Origin: Halanaerobiaceae bacterium
GTDB taxonomy: Bacteria; Bacillota; Halanaerobiia; Halanaerobiales; Halarsenatibacteraceae
Assembly: GCA_007134885.1 (NCBI GenBank)
Contig: SLJX01000015.1
Location: 1 to 35,142 of the forward strand
Length of the DNA: 35,142 nt
Direction of reading: 5' to 3'
Shown here: positions 1,757 through 9,010 of the stretch, piece by piece
Numbering within the stretch: the first letter of the stretch is position 1
Layout of the letters: every line of letters begins with the position of its first letter
The notes under the pieces: generated by a model
Told to the model about the DNA's origin: nothing
Databases searched by the model: none
What the model saw: the letters and a program-made list of their open reading frames with translations, nothing else
Program-made: the position numbers and the translations under genes

Positions 1757-3226
1757 TTAACCATCCAGACGTTCCAGCGCATTTTTTAGATCTGTCATTC
1801 TGTTATAAATATCATCATAAAATTCCAGTTCGCCACTTTGAGAAACTCCTGCGGTGAAATAGGAGAGATGAATCGGGATTGGATTATTGATATAGATGGT
1901 GGTTTCCTGTCTGTCTCTTATCTTATCATTAATCCTTTTCAGGTCCCAGTGAGCTTGATCCTGCAGCAGATAACTGGCGAACTCCATTGGCTTATTAATT
2001 CTGATACAGCCTGAACTTTCAGCTCGGGTTTCCAGATTAAAAAGATGACGGTCAGGAGTATCATGAAGATAGATGCTTTGATGATTAGGAAAGCGAAAAA
2101 CAACCCGCCCCAGAGCATTATCAGGGCCGGCGTCCTGCCAGAGGTAATAATCAAAGTTGCTGGCATCTTTTTCATCCCAGTTTATATCATCAGGATCGAT
2201 TTCGACAAATCGCCCGGAATCATCCTCCTGATAAACCCGATAACCTCCCCGTTCCAGATGGTCCTGGTCTTCCTTGATTTTCGGGAGATGTTCTCTAAGG
2301 GCGATCGATCTTGGCATGTACCAGCGCGGGCTGATGGTCAGATGGGTTAGAATTTTATTCATCTCCGGGGTGGGATGGGCCCGCCTGCCAATGATAGTTT
2401 TCATATCGAGAACAATTTCACTGTCCTCATAGACCTGGGCGGCAAAGGAGGGAAGATTTACATAGACATGCCTCTCGCTGGTTCCGGGAGAATTATCACC
2501 TGACCAGCGCCACTTTTCCAGGTTGGCTGCCAAAATGTTCTCCTCTTCCCGGGTAATGGTTTTTTCTCCTTGCTGGACGGCCTGGTTGATTTTCAGCAGT
2601 TTCTGATACTGGGGGTGCCGGGGCTGAATAGTGTTTAGAACCTCTTCCAGATCTTCTCCTGCCCGGGCAGTCGATAATACCTGAGAAACTTCAGGAGCAA
2701 TTCTCAGAGAAGTCGTTCTTCTGGTGTAGGAATCAGGGTTTAGCCTGCCCCGGGCCAGATCACCGGTTAAATTAACCAGCCCCTCGGTTATTATAATCTC
2801 CAGCTCGGCTGCTTGAGCCGGAGGAAACTCATCGGGGCTCTGATAGCGCAATCCCAGCCAGAGGTCATTGATTTCATCATAATTATAATCTTCGGGATTT
2901 AAGCCGAACTTTTGAGCCTGACTGATAATAGCATATGCCTCTTCGCCGGTTTCAGTTAATTTATTGTCGGCAACCCAGAGGGGATCATAATTTCTTCGCT
3001 CATAAAAATCATAAATCAAATCCTGCTGCAGGCTGGAATTAATTTCTTTCTCGAGATGGTGGTTTACACTTTTTTCTCTATCCTGAGCTGAAGCAGCCGG
3101 GGCCAGCAGGAATGCCAGTAAGATTACAATTACTATTAAGGACAAAACCTTCACTGCAGTCTGCTGAAGGCAGCTGAGGGCTGCGGAAAAATTGTTGGTT
3201 TCAAGATGACTGCTGGAGGTTTTCAT
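1757..3226 (-). CDS. L,D-transpeptidase of the YcbB/LdtD type (YkuD catalytic domain)
   Basis: This 489-residue exported enzyme is predicted to form 3-3 crosslinks between peptidoglycan stems or to attach proteins to them. After a hydrophobic signal segment (about 22-48) comes the helical scaffold region typical of large LdtD-like enzymes. The YkuD domain follows with YLHDTP and the catalytic SSGCIRI motif (cysteine about residue 407). I chose the ATG at 3226 because AAAGGTGGTGG lies just upstream; the frame stays open to an earlier ATG at 3304 that lacks such a site. Large LdtD enzymes normally carry a PG_binding_1 domain inserted before the NLERWRW-type segment. Here KINQAVQQGEK runs almost directly into LAANLEKWRW, so that domain appears absent, while the next gene in the operon carries three of them. 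Family assignment is firm; the crosslinking substrate is inferred. Confidence 0.88.
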   Translation of the reverse strand: MKTSSSHLETNNFSAALSCLQQTAVKVLSLIVIVILLAFLLAPAASAQDREKSVNHHLEKEINSSLQQDLIYDFYERRNYDPLWVADNKLTETGEEAYAIISQAQKFGLNPEDYNYDEINDLWLGLRYQSPDEFPPAQAAELEIIITEGLVNLTGDLARGRLNPDSYTRRTTSLRIAPEVSQVLSTARAGEDLEEVLNTIQPRHPQYQKLLKINQAVQQGEKTITREEENILAANLEKWRWSGDNSPGTSERHVYVNLPSFAAQVYEDSEIVLDMKTIIGRRAHPTPEMNKILTHLTISPRWYMPRSIALREHLPKIKEDQDHLERGGYRVYQEDDSGRFVEIDPDDINWDEKDASNFDYYLWQDAGPDNALGRVVFRFPNHQSIYLHDTPDRHLFNLETRAESSGCIRINKPMEFASYLLQDQAHWDLKRINDKIRDRQETTIYINNPIPIHLSYFTAGVSQSGELEFYDDIYNRMTDLKNALERLDG

Positions 3227-3581: not shown

Positions 3582-4736
3582 ATGAATAAAAAAACCAGCA
3601 AAAGACGGAGAATCAGGGAGTGGGGAATTATTCCGGGGATGCTGCCTGCGGGCAACTTAAACTCCATAACCGATGTTCCCGGGGTGGAAGTGGGACATTC
3701 AACGATTATTAGAGGAGAGGGAGAACTGGTTCCAGGAACAGGTCCAATTCGAACCGGGGTAACGGCAGTCTGGCCTCATCGAGATAATATTTTCAGAAAT
3801 CCGGTTTCAGCCGGTCTTGACATTATCAACGGCTACGGCAAAGCCGTGGGGCTATCTCAGATTCAGGAAATGGGCGTCCTGGAATCTCCGCTGCTCTTAA
3901 CCGGAACCCTTAATGTAGGCCGGGTTATGGATGCTCTGATTGATTATATCCTGCGGGATAATCCTGAAATAGGCATTAATTCCAGCAGTTACAATCCGGT
4001 AGTGCTGGAATGTAATGATGGTTATTTGAACGACCTGCAGGGCAGGCATGCAAAATCCCAGCATGTCCACCGGGCTCTGATTACCGCTTCCGGGGATAGA
4101 GTGCCCGAGGGAGAAATCGGCGCCGGTACAGGCATGGTTGCCTTTGGCTTTAAAGGGGGAATTGGTTCTTCTTCCCGTCGATTAACCCTGGAAGATAACA
4201 GTTTTCACCTGGGTGCTCTGGTATTAAGCAATTTTGGCCGACGGGAGGAACTCCGGATTGCCGGAGTCCCTCTTTATAATCTGAATCTGGATCAGAATTT
4301 GAAGCCTGCCAGAGCCAGAGAGAGACAGGATGGGTCGGTTATTGTTATTCTGGCCACTGATCTGCCGTTAGATTCTTTGAGCCTAACCAGAGCTGCCCGC
4401 CGGGCCCAGGCCGGTCTGGCCAGGGTGGGTTCGCTGGCTGATAACAGGAGCGGAGAGTATGTGCTGGCCTTTTCCACAGCCAGGCGCTATCAACGAGAAA
4501 ATAATGGCGGAGTTAGAGTTAGCAAGGACCAGCATAAGAAAAAGATGAAGCCAGCTGAAAGAAATGACTGTCAGGTGATGAATATGGTTTTTCAGGCAGT
4601 GGTTGAATCCACAGAAGAGGCGGTTTTAAACTCTCTTTTCATGGCTTCCACCCTGAGGGGAAGAGATGGTAATGAAGCCCGGGGGCTTCCAGCTGAAAAG
4701 GTTGCCGGCTGCTTAAATAAAATACTTCAGGGTTAG
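3582..4736 (+). CDS. P1 family peptidase (DmpA/BapA-type N-terminal nucleophile aminopeptidase)
   Basis: This 384-residue protein matches the DmpA family of self-cleaving aminopeptidases, which release N-terminal residues from peptides, amides or beta-peptides. The hallmark N-terminal block is present (IIPGMLPAGNLNSITDVPGV, then VGHSTI), followed by the RTGVTAV segment. The predicted autocleavage site is Gly251-Ser252 within DGSVIVILATD. Ser252 would become the N-terminal nucleophile of the beta chain. GALVLSNFGRREELRIAGVPL-like residues just before it (about 211-231) are also typical. No signal peptide is visible, so it is probably cytoplasmic. The gene stands alone on the plus strand and ends 5 bp from the convergent zinc-ribbon gene. 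The ATG has only a modest AGGA upstream. The substrate cannot be predicted from sequence alone. Confidence 0.88.
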   Translation: MNKKTSKRRRIREWGIIPGMLPAGNLNSITDVPGVEVGHSTIIRGEGELVPGTGPIRTGVTAVWPHRDNIFRNPVSAGLDIINGYGKAVGLSQIQEMGVLESPLLLTGTLNVGRVMDALIDYILRDNPEIGINSSSYNPVVLECNDGYLNDLQGRHAKSQHVHRALITASGDRVPEGEIGAGTGMVAFGFKGGIGSSSRRLTLEDNSFHLGALVLSNFGRREELRIAGVPLYNLNLDQNLKPARARERQDGSVIVILATDLPLDSLSLTRAARRAQAGLARVGSLADNRSGEYVLAFSTARRYQRENNGGVRVSKDQHKKKMKPAERNDCQVMNMVFQAVVESTEEAVLNSLFMASTLRGRDGNEARGLPAEKVAGCLNKILQG

Positions 4737-4741
4737 AATAA

Positions 4742-5449
4742 TTAGAGAATTTTTTCCGCTAGATATTTCCCTCCCTCTGTTTTAAGCTCTACAGCTGAGG
4801 AGGAGTCCAGCTGCTGCTCTACCAGTTGATGAGCATCCTGCAGAACCAGAAAGGAATGATTAGGCAACTCTTTTACTCTCAGAGCTCTGATATTGTTTAT
4901 TATTTCTTCCTGATAGCGTTCCGGCAAATCAAGGCTCTGAAGCAGAGCGGCAGCAATCTGCCAGCAGTGTTCGATATCTTCCGGATTATACCCCTGTTCT
5001 GCCAGAATTTCCCGGTAATTTAGCTTCCCAAGCTGGCAGGAGCTACTGCCCAGCTCGTGCAGCAGAGCTGAAAGGATGATATTCAGAGGGCTGTACTGCT
5101 CTCTGTTGCCAATTCTATCTGCCATTTTGACAACTTCTTGGATATGAGTAACTTTATCCGGCTGATTCCCATAGATTTCTTCAATTTTTTCTGCCATTCT
5201 GTCCCGAATTGTCTGCACCTCTTTGTAGAGGGTGCTGCCCTGACCAATACACATGGCAGCGTGCTCGCACCATTCAGCACATTCCAGGTTAAAGCTGGGA
5301 TTGATGACATCCTCTCCGCAGTTGGGGCAAGACCGCATCAGATCAAATTTAAAAAACTCAATATTATATTCACAGTTCGGGCATTCCTTTTCACTGACAT
5401 CTTCGGGAGACCAGTTGCGTCCATCCTGTCCGGGACATTTTTGTATCAA
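4742..5449 (-). CDS. Zinc-ribbon HD-like phosphohydrolase family protein, HD motif altered to HE
   Basis: This is a 235-residue soluble protein. The TTG at 5449 is preferred because AAAAGGAGG precedes it, and starting there puts KCPGQDGRNW at the N-terminus as in the relatives I recall. The ATG at 5500 has no ribosome binding site. The N-terminal third carries cysteine pairs at C23/C26 and C41/C44, then a CAEWCEHAAMC cluster (C57, C61, C67), which suggests one or two bound zinc ions or a cluster. The C-terminal part is a helical HD-like fold with H102, then H131-E132 in ALLHELG where a canonical enzyme has HD, and D205 in LQDAHQ. Glutamate may still bind metal, or the domain may be a non-catalytic nucleotide sensor. 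Its substrate is unknown. Confidence 0.6.
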   Translation of the reverse strand: MIQKCPGQDGRNWSPEDVSEKECPNCEYNIEFFKFDLMRSCPNCGEDVINPSFNLECAEWCEHAAMCIGQGSTLYKEVQTIRDRMAEKIEEIYGNQPDKVTHIQEVVKMADRIGNREQYSPLNIILSALLHELGSSSCQLGKLNYREILAEQGYNPEDIEHCWQIAAALLQSLDLPERYQEEIINNIRALRVKELPNHSFLVLQDAHQLVEQQLDSSSAVELKTEGGKYLAEKIL

Positions 5450-5599
5450 GGTGATCTTCCTCCTTTTACTGGCTGATTTTTTAAATTTTGCTATCATCAT
5501 TTTACATCAGAGGCTGTAGTAAATCCATGATATAAATCACATTATTTTACTCAGGATAAATGATTCTGGCTGCCTTCAGGTTTAATTTTTACATCTGGC

Positions 5600-5628
5600 T
5601 TGACAGCAGAGAGCTAATTGATTATCAT
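5600..5628 (+). promoter_or_regulatory. Promoter of the znu operon
   Basis: A perfect TTGACA (5600-5605) and TATCAT (5623-5628, five of six) are separated by the optimal 17 bp. Transcription would start around 5635, a few bases before the palindrome at 5640-5656 and about 37 nt before the znuA start. Confidence 0.75.
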
Positions 5629-5639
5629 ATTATTACTAG

Positions 5640-5656
5640 TTGCAAATCATTTGCAA
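5640..5656. promoter_or_regulatory. Candidate Zur/Fur-family operator (8-1-8 perfect palindrome)
   Basis: TTGCAAATCATTTGCAA is a perfect 8-1-8 inverted repeat with an AAT-N-ATT core. That is the architecture of Fur-superfamily (Fur, Zur, PerR) operators. It begins about 12 bp downstream of the -10 box and ends just before the AGGAGG of znuA, so a bound dimer would block the start of transcription. Its position before a zinc uptake operon makes Zur the natural reader (inference). Confidence 0.65.
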
Positions 5657-5671
5657 AAGGAGGCAAACAAC

Positions 5672-6712
5672 TTGTTCCAGAAAATAGCGGTTATTATGGT
5701 TTTGATTGTTGGTGTGCTTCTTGCCCTGTACTCTCCCCTGGCGGCAGAATCCTCTCCCGAAGTCTATGTCAGCATATATCCGATTTATGAGATTGCCGAA
5801 CGGATTGGAGGAGAAAGACTGGAAATTCACCAGGTTGTTCCCGACGGAGTTGAACCCCACGGTTACGAGCCTGTTCCCCGGGATGTGGCCGGTCTGGAAG
5901 GTGCTGCAGCCTTTGTCTATGTAGGACTGGGGCTGGAGGCCTGGGGCGAGAGAGGTGCCCGGATTGTAGCCGAACAGGGCGGCAGGGTAATTAAACTGAG
6001 TGATCATGTTGAGCTAAGAGAATATCGTGGTCACCATCATGATAATCAGGAAGAAGATAGTCATGACCAGCATAATGGTGGAGATGGCTATAGTCAACAC
6101 ATCAATGAAGATGAACATGACACTCATGAGAAAGATAGTCATCAGGACCACAATGAAGATAGCCCTGACCATCACCACGGGGAATATGATAATCATATCT
6201 GGCTGGACTTTGAAAACATGAAAATTACTGCTGAAATTTTAACCGATCTTTTTATTGATCTGGAACCTGAAGGAGAAGAAGAATTTGTCGCTGCCCGGGA
6301 TGAGGTTCAACATAAATTGGCTGAACTTGATGCTGCCTACCGGGAAGGTTTAGAGGATTTAAAGCATGACACCATAATTGTTTCCCATGCTGCCTTTGGC
6401 TATCTGGCAGATAGCTATGGCCTTAAGCAGATTGCGGTGACCGGAATTTCTCCTGAGGAGGAACCGTCATCCCGGGTGATAGCGGACCTGATTGAGGTTG
6501 CCCGGACCAGCGGGGTGAACTATATTTTTCTGGAGACACTGGCCAGCCCCCGTACGGTAGAGGTTATAGCCGAGGAGGCCGGCCTGGAAATATTGACACT
6601 GAACCCGGTAGAGGGCTTAAGAGCCGAAGATAGAGAACAGGGTCGAGATTATTTTTCAATTATGTATTCCAACCTGGAAAACCTGAAGCAGGCCCTGGGG
6701 AAAAACAGATGA
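5672..6712 (+). CDS. znuA: Zinc ABC transporter substrate-binding protein
   Basis: This is the extracytoplasmic metal-binding protein of a cluster A-I ABC importer (ZnuA/AdcA family), which captures zinc and delivers it to ZnuB. I start it at TTG 5672, 7 nt after AAAAGGAGG; this gives MFQKIAV... and a clean signal peptide (about 1-25), whereas the longer frame from 5618 would include the operator. Predicted metal ligands are H63 (EPHGYEP), H175 (NHIWLD) and H239 (VSHAAFGYL). Between the first two is a long His/Asp/Glu-rich loop (about 120-175, some 14 histidines), the feature that separates zinc-binding members from manganese-binding ones. The gene overlaps znuC by 4 bp (ATGA), showing translational coupling. 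A promoter and palindromic operator lie directly upstream. Confidence 0.92.
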   Translation: MFQKIAVIMVLIVGVLLALYSPLAAESSPEVYVSIYPIYEIAERIGGERLEIHQVVPDGVEPHGYEPVPRDVAGLEGAAAFVYVGLGLEAWGERGARIVAEQGGRVIKLSDHVELREYRGHHHDNQEEDSHDQHNGGDGYSQHINEDEHDTHEKDSHQDHNEDSPDHHHGEYDNHIWLDFENMKITAEILTDLFIDLEPEGEEEFVAARDEVQHKLAELDAAYREGLEDLKHDTIIVSHAAFGYLADSYGLKQIAVTGISPEEEPSSRVIADLIEVARTSGVNYIFLETLASPRTVEVIAEEAGLEILTLNPVEGLRAEDREQGRDYFSIMYSNLENLKQALGKNR

Positions 6713-7455
6713 GTTTCTTAAAAGTTGAAGGTGTATCCTTTGCCTACAGGAAGGAACGGGTGGTAGATGATGTTAATCTGGAACTTAAACTGGGAGATTT
6801 TGCGGCCTTTATTGGGCCCAATGGTTCTGGCAAGAGCACCTTGCTGAAACTGATTTTGGGTTACCTTACACCAACCCGGGGAGAAATCACTCTGAAGGGT
6901 CAGCCGGTGGCTGATATTATGGATTGGACCAGGGTTGGTTATATTTCCCAGCAGGTTAAGGATTTTAATCAGAGTTTTCCGGCTACAGTTCGGGAGATAG
7001 TCGGCAGCAATCTTTACAGCAAAATGGGTCTGGTCAAATTTTTAAATCAGGAGCTGGAAAAAAAGATTTACCGAGCTCTGGAACTGGTTGAAATGGAAGA
7101 TTTTATTAACCGCAAAATTGGCAATCTTTCCGGCGGTCAGCAGCAGCGGATCTTTATTGCCAGGCTGATGGTTAATGATCCGGAACTGATTCTGCTGGAT
7201 GAACCCCTGGCAGGTGTCGATATCAGGGCCCAGGATGATTTCTACCGGATTATTGGCAAAATTAATCAGGAGATGAATAAGACTGTTATCATGGTCTCCC
7301 ATGATATTCAGGTGATCAGCAAGCATGCCAATAAAATTATCTGCTTTGAGGGTGGCCGGGCCTATCCTCACTGCAGTCAGGAGTTTAGCTATGATGATTA
7401 TATGCATGAGCTGAGAAGGACCAACCTGAGAATTATACCCAGACATGATCACTAA
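6709..7455 (+). CDS. znuC: Zinc ABC transporter ATP-binding protein
   Basis: This 248-residue cytoplasmic ATPase drives the zinc importer. It shows Walker A (GPNGSGKST, about residues 38-46), the Q-loop (ISQQ), the ABC signature LSGGQQQR (about 139-146), Walker B (LILLDEP) with the catalytic glutamate, and the H-loop histidine in MVSHDIQ. The start overlaps the last codons of znuA by 4 bp and the gene is followed within a few bases by the permease gene. The length and motif order are standard for ZnuC/AdcC. Within the cluster A-I family manganese and zinc ATPases look alike, so the metal is assigned from the partner ZnuA. Confidence 0.92.
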   Translation: MSFLKVEGVSFAYRKERVVDDVNLELKLGDFAAFIGPNGSGKSTLLKLILGYLTPTRGEITLKGQPVADIMDWTRVGYISQQVKDFNQSFPATVREIVGSNLYSKMGLVKFLNQELEKKIYRALELVEMEDFINRKIGNLSGGQQQRIFIARLMVNDPELILLDEPLAGVDIRAQDDFYRIIGKINQEMNKTVIMVSHDIQVISKHANKIICFEGGRAYPHCSQEFSYDDYMHELRRTNLRIIPRHDH

Positions 7456-7469
7456 GGATGGTGGCTGCA

Positions 7470-8285
7470 GTGGAATTTTTGGATTATACCTTTATGAGGA
7501 GAGCCCTGCTGGCGGGTAATTTGGTGGGGGTCATCGCACCGCTGGTTGGGGTTTTTTTAAATTTAAGACGGTTATCCTTAATCGGTCATACCCTTTCTCA
7601 CGTGGCTCTGGCCGGGGTAGCTCTAGGTCTTTTTCTAGGCTTTTTTCCGGTTTATACTGCCATTATAGTTTCAATTCTTGCTGCCCTGGCCATTGAAAAG
7701 CTGCGCCGGGATTATCGGGATTATGCTGAACTTTCTCTGGCCATTATTCTGGCCGCCGGCCTGGGGCTGGCCACGATTTTGATCAGCGCTTCCCGTCAGA
7801 GCGTTGGAATTCACAGCTATCTTTTTGGCTCTATTTCTCTGGTGGGAACCCGGGATATTTATATGATCCTACCACTGGCTCTGGTTATTATTGCAGTGAT
7901 TTTGAAATACTATTACGGATTTTTTTATCTGGCCTTCAATGAAAATGAAGCCTGGCTGGCCGGGGTACCGGTCAGGACTTTGAATATTGTATTTATGGTG
8001 ATAGTTTCAGTCACGGTGGCTCTGGCCATCAGGGTGGTGGGAACCCTGCTGATAGCTTCCCTGATAACCATTCCCGTAGCTGCCGGGATGCAGGTTGCCT
8101 GGAGTTTTAAAAGCACCATCTGGCTGAGTCTGTTATTCAGCCTGACGGCGGTTAATCTGGGGCTGATTTTATCATTTTATTATAATCTTGCTCCGGGAGG
8201 AACGATTATTCTGGCCGGAGTGGTGATACTGCTGCTGGTGCTGTTAGTGAAAAAAATCTGGTTTATGCTCCGTCGTGATCTGTAA
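7470..8285 (+). CDS. znuB: Zinc ABC transporter permease
   Basis: This is an integral membrane protein of the ABC-3 family (ZnuB/AdcB), the channel subunit for the zinc importer, with about eight hydrophobic segments. The conserved start region ALLAGNLVGVIAPLVG and the VRVVGTLL-like block (AIRVVGTLLIASLITIPVA) before the last helices match the family. I prefer the GTG at 7470 (MEFLDYTFMRRALLAG, 272 residues), because GGATGGTGG lies 5 nt upstream and this N-terminus is the family norm. The in-frame ATG at 7458 lies 2 bp after the znuC stop and cannot be excluded. It is the last gene of the operon; no convincing terminator follows. Confidence 0.88.
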   Translation: MEFLDYTFMRRALLAGNLVGVIAPLVGVFLNLRRLSLIGHTLSHVALAGVALGLFLGFFPVYTAIIVSILAALAIEKLRRDYRDYAELSLAIILAAGLGLATILISASRQSVGIHSYLFGSISLVGTRDIYMILPLALVIIAVILKYYYGFFYLAFNENEAWLAGVPVRTLNIVFMVIVSVTVALAIRVVGTLLIASLITIPVAAGMQVAWSFKSTIWLSLLFSLTAVNLGLILSFYYNLAPGGTIILAGVVILLLVLLVKKIWFMLRRDL

Positions 8286-8449: not shown

Positions 8450-9010
8450 ATGGAAATATTTTTGCTGGCCTTTGTAACAATTTTTTTAGCCGAGATGGGC
8501 GATAAAACCCAGTTTACCACCCTGCTACTGGCTTCCTGCGGGGCAGCCCGACAGGTATATCTGGGTGCCCTATCTGCTTTGTTTCTAGCAACCGGACTGA
8601 TAATTTATTTGGGAACAACCCTGATTACCTTTCTTCCCCGGAAAGAGATTTTGCTGGTCGGAGGAGCCTTTTTTATCCTGATGGGTATTTATACTTACTT
8701 TAAAAAACAGAAACAGCCGTCGGCCGGTGAGATAAAGTGCCAGCGAAGAGTTTTTATCCAGAGCTTTAGTCTGGTTTTTCTGGCCGAACTGGGCGATAAG
8801 ACCCAGTTAGCTGCCCTCAGTCTGGCCGTTGCCAGCAGCTCTCCCCTGGCTGTTTTTTTAGGGGCTGTTTCCGCTCAGGCCCTCAATCACGGGCTGGCAG
8901 CCTGGCTGGGCCGTTCGCTTTACAATAAAGTCCCTCCTGTGAGAATTAAGCAGGCAGTTTCTTTGCTTTTTCTGCTGGTTGGTATAACTATTGTTCTGCT
9001 TGAAATATAA
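8450..9010 (+). CDS. TMEM165/GDT1 (UPF0016) family cation transporter
   Basis: This 186-residue membrane protein has about six transmembrane helices in two inverted-like halves. Each half carries the family signature E-x-G-D-K-T (AEMGDKTQFTTLLLA near residue 14 and AELGDKTQLAALSLA in the second half). Bacterial and eukaryotic members export or exchange Mn2+ or Ca2+; in bacteria manganese efflux is the best supported role. The ATG at 8450 is chosen because AAGGAGG precedes it by 5 nt; an upstream in-frame start at 8426 would bury that site. Its location right after the zinc importer hints at shared metal homeostasis, but it has its own promoter. Which ion it moves is not decided by the sequence. 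Confidence 0.88.
   Translation: MEIFLLAFVTIFLAEMGDKTQFTTLLLASCGAARQVYLGALSALFLATGLIIYLGTTLITFLPRKEILLVGGAFFILMGIYTYFKKQKQPSAGEIKCQRRVFIQSFSLVFLAELGDKTQLAALSLAVASSSPLAVFLGAVSAQALNHGLAAWLGRSLYNKVPPVRIKQAVSLLFLLVGITIVLLEI

Follow-up and report, generated by a model that had tools for sequence, protein, structure and literature searches.

A conserved palindrome at the znu promoter of Halanaerobia as a probable operator of the zinc uptake regulator Zur

In a Halanaerobiaceae bacterium, a palindrome at the point where the znu transcript begins is very probably the operator on which Zur, a zinc uptake regulator of the Fur family, acts. Genome comparison strongly supports a predicted Fur-family (Zur) operator that controls znu, as an earlier note on this DNA had proposed, because the site is conserved at znu operons, has a fixed geometry relative to the −10 element of the promoter and co-occurs with a znu-linked clade of Fur-family proteins. 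The window analysed here is a whole stretch of 35,142 nucleotides (contig SLJX01000015.1, assembly GCA_007134885.1), and its genome was scanned together with those of 80 relatives, giving a set of 81 genomes.

The palindrome and its promoter

The 17-mer TTGCAAATCATTTGCAA, a perfect 8-1-8 palindrome, occupies exactly positions 5640–5656 of the window (Table 1); both its letters and its place between a near-consensus promoter and the znuA ribosome-binding site are as first described. The promoter, TTGACA-17-TATCAT, matches the consensus at 11 of 12 positions. With the start of the znu transcript set about 7 bases after the −10 element, at around 5635, the palindrome would lie at approximately +5 to +21. 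A place just inside the predicted transcript is therefore a more precise description than the earlier one of a site that overlaps the transcript start.

The TTG start of znuA was picked by its spacing from the Shine–Dalgarno (SD) sequence (the mechanical open reading frame begins at 5618), and in two relatives an ATG aligns with it. The best two NCBIfam models for znuA, AztC and AdcA, are zinc models, with scores below the cut-off. Relatives of znuA in named genomes occur at four loci, three of them in Halanaerobiaceae MAGs (isolate T1Sed10) and one in a distant Sulfurimonas, which was left out of further analysis.

Table 1 Features of the znu promoter and operon in the window
Feature	Position	Strand	Remarks
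−35 element of the znu promoter, TTGACA	5600–5605	+	Position relative to the operator also kept in relatives
−10 element, TATCAT	5623–5628	+	17-bp spacer from the −35 element
Predicted Zur-type operator, TTGCAAATCATTTGCAA	5640–5656	no strand	Conserved at znu operons in 33 of 54 class genomes examined
Ribosome-binding site (SD), AAGGAGG	5657–5663	+	Abuts the operator; invariant across four genomes of the genus
znuA, metal-binding protein with His-rich loop	5672–6712	+	Pfam ZnuA, 3.6e-73
znuC, ABC transporter ATPase	6709–7455	+	Pfam ABC_tran
znuB, ABC-3 family permease	7458–8285	+	Pfam ABC-3, 5.5e-59

Two further features were observed around the operon. Downstream lies a gene for a GDT1-type divalent cation transporter (8450–9010). 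Upstream, TCCATGATATAAATCACATTAT (5524–5545) shows no change across four genomes of the genus; its minus strand, TGTGAT-TTAT-ATCATG, resembles a CRP/FNR-type site, which may serve either the divergent gene at 4742–5500 or znu.

On its own, the palindrome is only moderately unlikely by chance. Where dinucleotide shuffling predicts 0.7 perfect 8-1-8 palindromes, the window has 3 (a count that 5 of 100 shuffles attain), and the intergenic region at 5501–5671 (171 bases) contains one in 0.46% of 5,000 shuffles. In its own genome, TTGCAAATCATTTGCAA is the sole exact match, with no place at 1 mismatch and two places at 2 mismatches. The significance of the palindrome derives from its conservation in relatives. 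A functionless chance occurrence, for which the expectation of about 0.7 such palindromes per 35 kb would speak, is contradicted by class-wide conservation at znu operons and has a negligible probability.

Conservation at znu operons

A scan of related genomes for the 17-mer, which had been suggested as a check, shows that it is conserved at znu operons. Fifty-four of the 59 genomes of the class have a znuA-like gene (no match was found in G010, G021, G024, G039 and G050). From 250 bases before to 90 bases after the mechanical start of these genes, sites with at most 2 mismatches to WTGCAAATNATTTGCAW are present at 34 znu operons in 33 of the 54 genomes; of random 340-base windows from the same loci, from which true sites were not removed, 30 of 1,500 contain such a match. 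In the full set of 81 genomes, there are 43 places in 34 genomes with at most 1 mismatch to the pattern, 27 of them just upstream of znu genes, and the reversed pattern, which contains CpG and may therefore be a low control, gives 4 places. Across 43 sites at znu operons, 11 of the 17 positions are invariant, partly by construction because these sites were chosen at 3 or fewer mismatches. The conserved blocks in an alignment of four genomes of the genus are CTTGACA, the operator and the SD sequence.

Sites are also missing in places. None was found at the znu gene examined in three Zur-positive genomes (G012, G015 and G042) or at the second znu-like operons of four Zur-positive genomes (G046, G052, G054 and G055), and no obvious replacement motif was apparent by eye upstream of znuA in G004, G023, G028, G041 and G048. 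Absence of the palindrome upstream of znuA orthologues, which the earlier note had named as evidence against its proposal, was seen mainly in genomes without the Zur clade.

The position of the site relative to the promoter is constrained. With promoters predicted at a score of at least 9 of 12 and distances measured from the end of the −10 element to the start of the site, the site begins 6–13 bases past the predicted −10 element in 29 of 34 operons (9–11 bases in most); in 100 shuffles of the upstream DNA, this spacing arises in 1.1 operons on average and never in more than 4 of 34. Nine operons have two sites, which are 59–61 bases apart in six cases, 73 in two and 81 in one. In the six with the shortest distance, all of one family (L125, L130, L132, L134, L136 and L138), this separation means that the operator pair flanks the znu promoter on both sides.

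Such geometry fits a repressor that would sit on the promoter and the first transcribed bases. When zinc is sufficient, a Zur dimer would occupy the two TTGCAAAT half-sites just 3′ of the −10 element and would prevent RNA polymerase from initiating at the promoter or escaping from it, which would keep znuACB off; when zinc drops, Zur would lose its metal and release the DNA, and the importer would be made.

The znu-linked Fur-family clade

By sequence, the Fur-family proteins are of three kinds (Fur-like, PerR-like and znu-linked), which were sorted by eye and score with no tree behind the sorting. Proteins of the znu-linked clade pass the Pfam FUR cut-off, and 27 of the 34 site-bearing znu operons share their locus with a Zur-like gene; zur in G012 has no adjoining znu genes. 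A Zur profile built on an alignment (A1) of 25 proteins of the clade scores at least 167.9 bits in 34 class genomes as against 139.4 bits or less for the next, and G072, from outside the class, reaches 144 bits. Because A1 is made mostly of znu-linked proteins, the definition of the clade and its linkage to znu are not independent. The Zur of G003 scores 50.6 bits with the NCBIfam model of E. coli-type Zur (NF008646), far below the cut-off of 167 bits.

Two CxxC pairs that form a structural zinc site (C113, C116, C152 and C155) are invariant in the 25 aligned proteins, as is an extra Cys-Pro between them (C124 and P125 in the numbering of the first row of A1). The motif CP[LIMV] follows the first CxxC in 33 of 35 znu-linked proteins versus 4 of 54 others, and those four are unlinked members of the same clade; none of the Fur-like or PerR-like proteins examined has the extra Cys-Pro. 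The Zur of B. subtilis also has such a CP. This extra cysteine is a possible zinc-sensing ligand.

Regulator and site occur together. Among 54 genomes, 31 have both, 3 have Zur only (G012, G015 and G042), 2 have the site only (G007 and the genome of the window, G000) and 18 have neither (P = 2.2e-9, or 3.1e-11 with G000 and G007 left out), although these per-genome values are inflated because the genomes are related. Counted as genus states without G000 and G007, 20 have both, 2 Zur only, 0 the site only and 7 neither (P = 2.3e-5). Genus g11 is mixed: one of its genomes has both, and others lack both. Many of the Zur-negative genomes have, as their only znuA-like gene, a more distantly related one, so that the most telling negatives are G004, G023 and G028: with a znuA 55–57% identical to that of the window, they have neither site nor Zur.

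No zur was found in the assembly of the window's own genome by Fur-family and Zur-profile searches. We infer that the gene is present at an assembly gap, because zur of G003 (6251–6733 of a 9,733-base contig) lies between the point at which the match of own contig C85 (10,824 bases) ends, at 4125, where C85 itself ends, and the point at which that of C65 begins, at 6763. The 3′ end of zur is expected in the start region of C65. The first 101 bases of this contig (G000:C65:1-101, L271) do not match G003 and are single-copy in their own genome, such that a local rearrangement is possible, and zur may possibly have been lost or its locus rearranged. Similarly, for G007, zur of the sister genome G005 (L257, 5672–6091) falls between one contig match that stops at 3086 and another that begins at 6165.

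Relation to known operators

The site is an operator of known kind, in a lineage (Halanaerobia) for which we found no printed Zur box in the literature searched. Zur of B. subtilis is a Fur-family zinc repressor of znu-type importers, with a box that has a central AATNATT, common to the window site, and CGTAAT-type flanks. Its half-sites differ from those of the window, as had been pointed out: GCAAAT-N-ATTTGC does not match CGTAAT-N-ATTACG. Zur boxes vary between groups, and zinc-bound Zur blocks polymerase binding, according to a review (PMC6103462).

The further suggestion that the motif is specific to the lineage does not stand, as the same word appears in three published reports. In Clostridium thermocellum, which belongs to a different bacterial class, Fur_1691 binds TGCAAATcATTTGCA, a core of 15 bases identical to the window site, in front of a zinc ABC transporter (DAP-seq; a response to zinc was untested there); by locus numbers, the regulator gene 1691 adjoins the transporter genes 1690–1688, its sites are conserved in C. 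clariflavum, C. stercorarium and Caldicellulosiruptor bescii, and further targets are proposed (a toxin–antitoxin operon and a channel), in contrast to the near-single target here (PMC8457756). The exact 17-mer of the window is contained in the 25-bp DNA of a co-crystal of Magnetospirillum gryphiswaldense Fur with an engineered feoAB1 operator, in which the natural sequence was altered by three base pairs for crystallization and one Fur dimer sits on the palindrome; this Fur is an iron regulator of iron genes, unlike znu here (PMC4506495). The Nur box of Streptomyces coelicolor, tTGCaa-N5-ttGCAA, which the window site matches at 12 of 12 specified positions, belongs to a nickel sensor that acts on SOD genes in another phylum (PMC3919588). 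Sensors of zinc, of iron and of nickel, found in different bacteria, thus share one operator word, and the word by itself does not reveal the metal.

Alternative explanations

Binding by another Fur-family protein would couple znu to iron or peroxide. The window's own assembly yielded just two Fur-family proteins, one Fur-like (C191) and one PerR-like (C197), and the engineered operator bound by Magnetospirillum Fur holds the exact 17-mer (PMC4506495). Yet G004, G023 and G028, where znuA has no site, likewise have Fur-like and PerR-like proteins, and the site tracks the third, znu-linked clade, making this explanation improbable. A nickel-responsive site, at which a Nur-type regulator would control a nickel or mixed-metal importer, gains from the complete match to the specified positions of the Nur box (PMC3919588) but is less probable still. 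A Nur regulon would have nickel transport or SOD genes under the box; a zinc-type importer lies downstream of the window's site. The operon encodes a ZnuA/ABC-3 system with a His-rich loop, for which the best models, AztC and AdcA, are zinc-type although below cut-off, and in C. thermocellum it is at a zinc transporter that a regulator binds this word (PMC8457756).

The palindrome directly abuts AAGGAGG in the window and could conceivably work as an mRNA hairpin that touches the ribosome-binding site. In relatives, however, the distance between operator and SD sequence varies from 0 to tens of bases whereas that between operator and −10 element is kept, and in six of the nine operons with a second copy this copy lies 59–61 bases upstream, before the −35 element and hence outside the transcript; we give the hairpin even less credence than the nickel-responsive site.

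Extent of the regulon and implications

The proposed use of the motif as a finder of the zinc regulon was not borne out in the 81 genomes, and a wide regulon was rejected: the 16 of 43 near-exact places (at most 1 mismatch) that lie away from znu operons look unrelated or unproven. All 16 were read; 11 are inside mechanical open reading frames and 5 outside, and no nameable zinc gene adjoins them, save in one case. This is TTGCAAATTATTAGCAA at L197:3084–3100 (G056), found in one genome only, 39 bases before an open reading frame that resembles ftsH, the gene of a zinc protease.

The Zur regulon looks tiny, consisting of znu and perhaps, in the genus of the window, a gene of the DUF2103 family, a predicted metal-binding family. 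Of the two sites with 2 mismatches in the genome of the window, one precedes this gene (G000:C202:1781–1797, L211), and a 14-bp block, GCAAATTATTTGCA, is unchanged in 3 of 3 genomes of the genus that have the gene, with changed flanks (L211; L277 and L281, near 1423). No match with 2 or fewer mismatches was found near the gene at 27 of 30 DUF2103 loci scanned (30 of 55 matches). We therefore treat the DUF2103 gene as a tentative candidate for a second Zur target in this genus, with a somewhat less than even chance of being one. If true, DUF2103 would be a zinc-starvation protein, which would be the first functional hint for this uncharacterized family. The comparison identifies the likely zinc-repressor operator of an entire class of anaerobic bacteria, in which the occurrence of the site follows that of the regulator.
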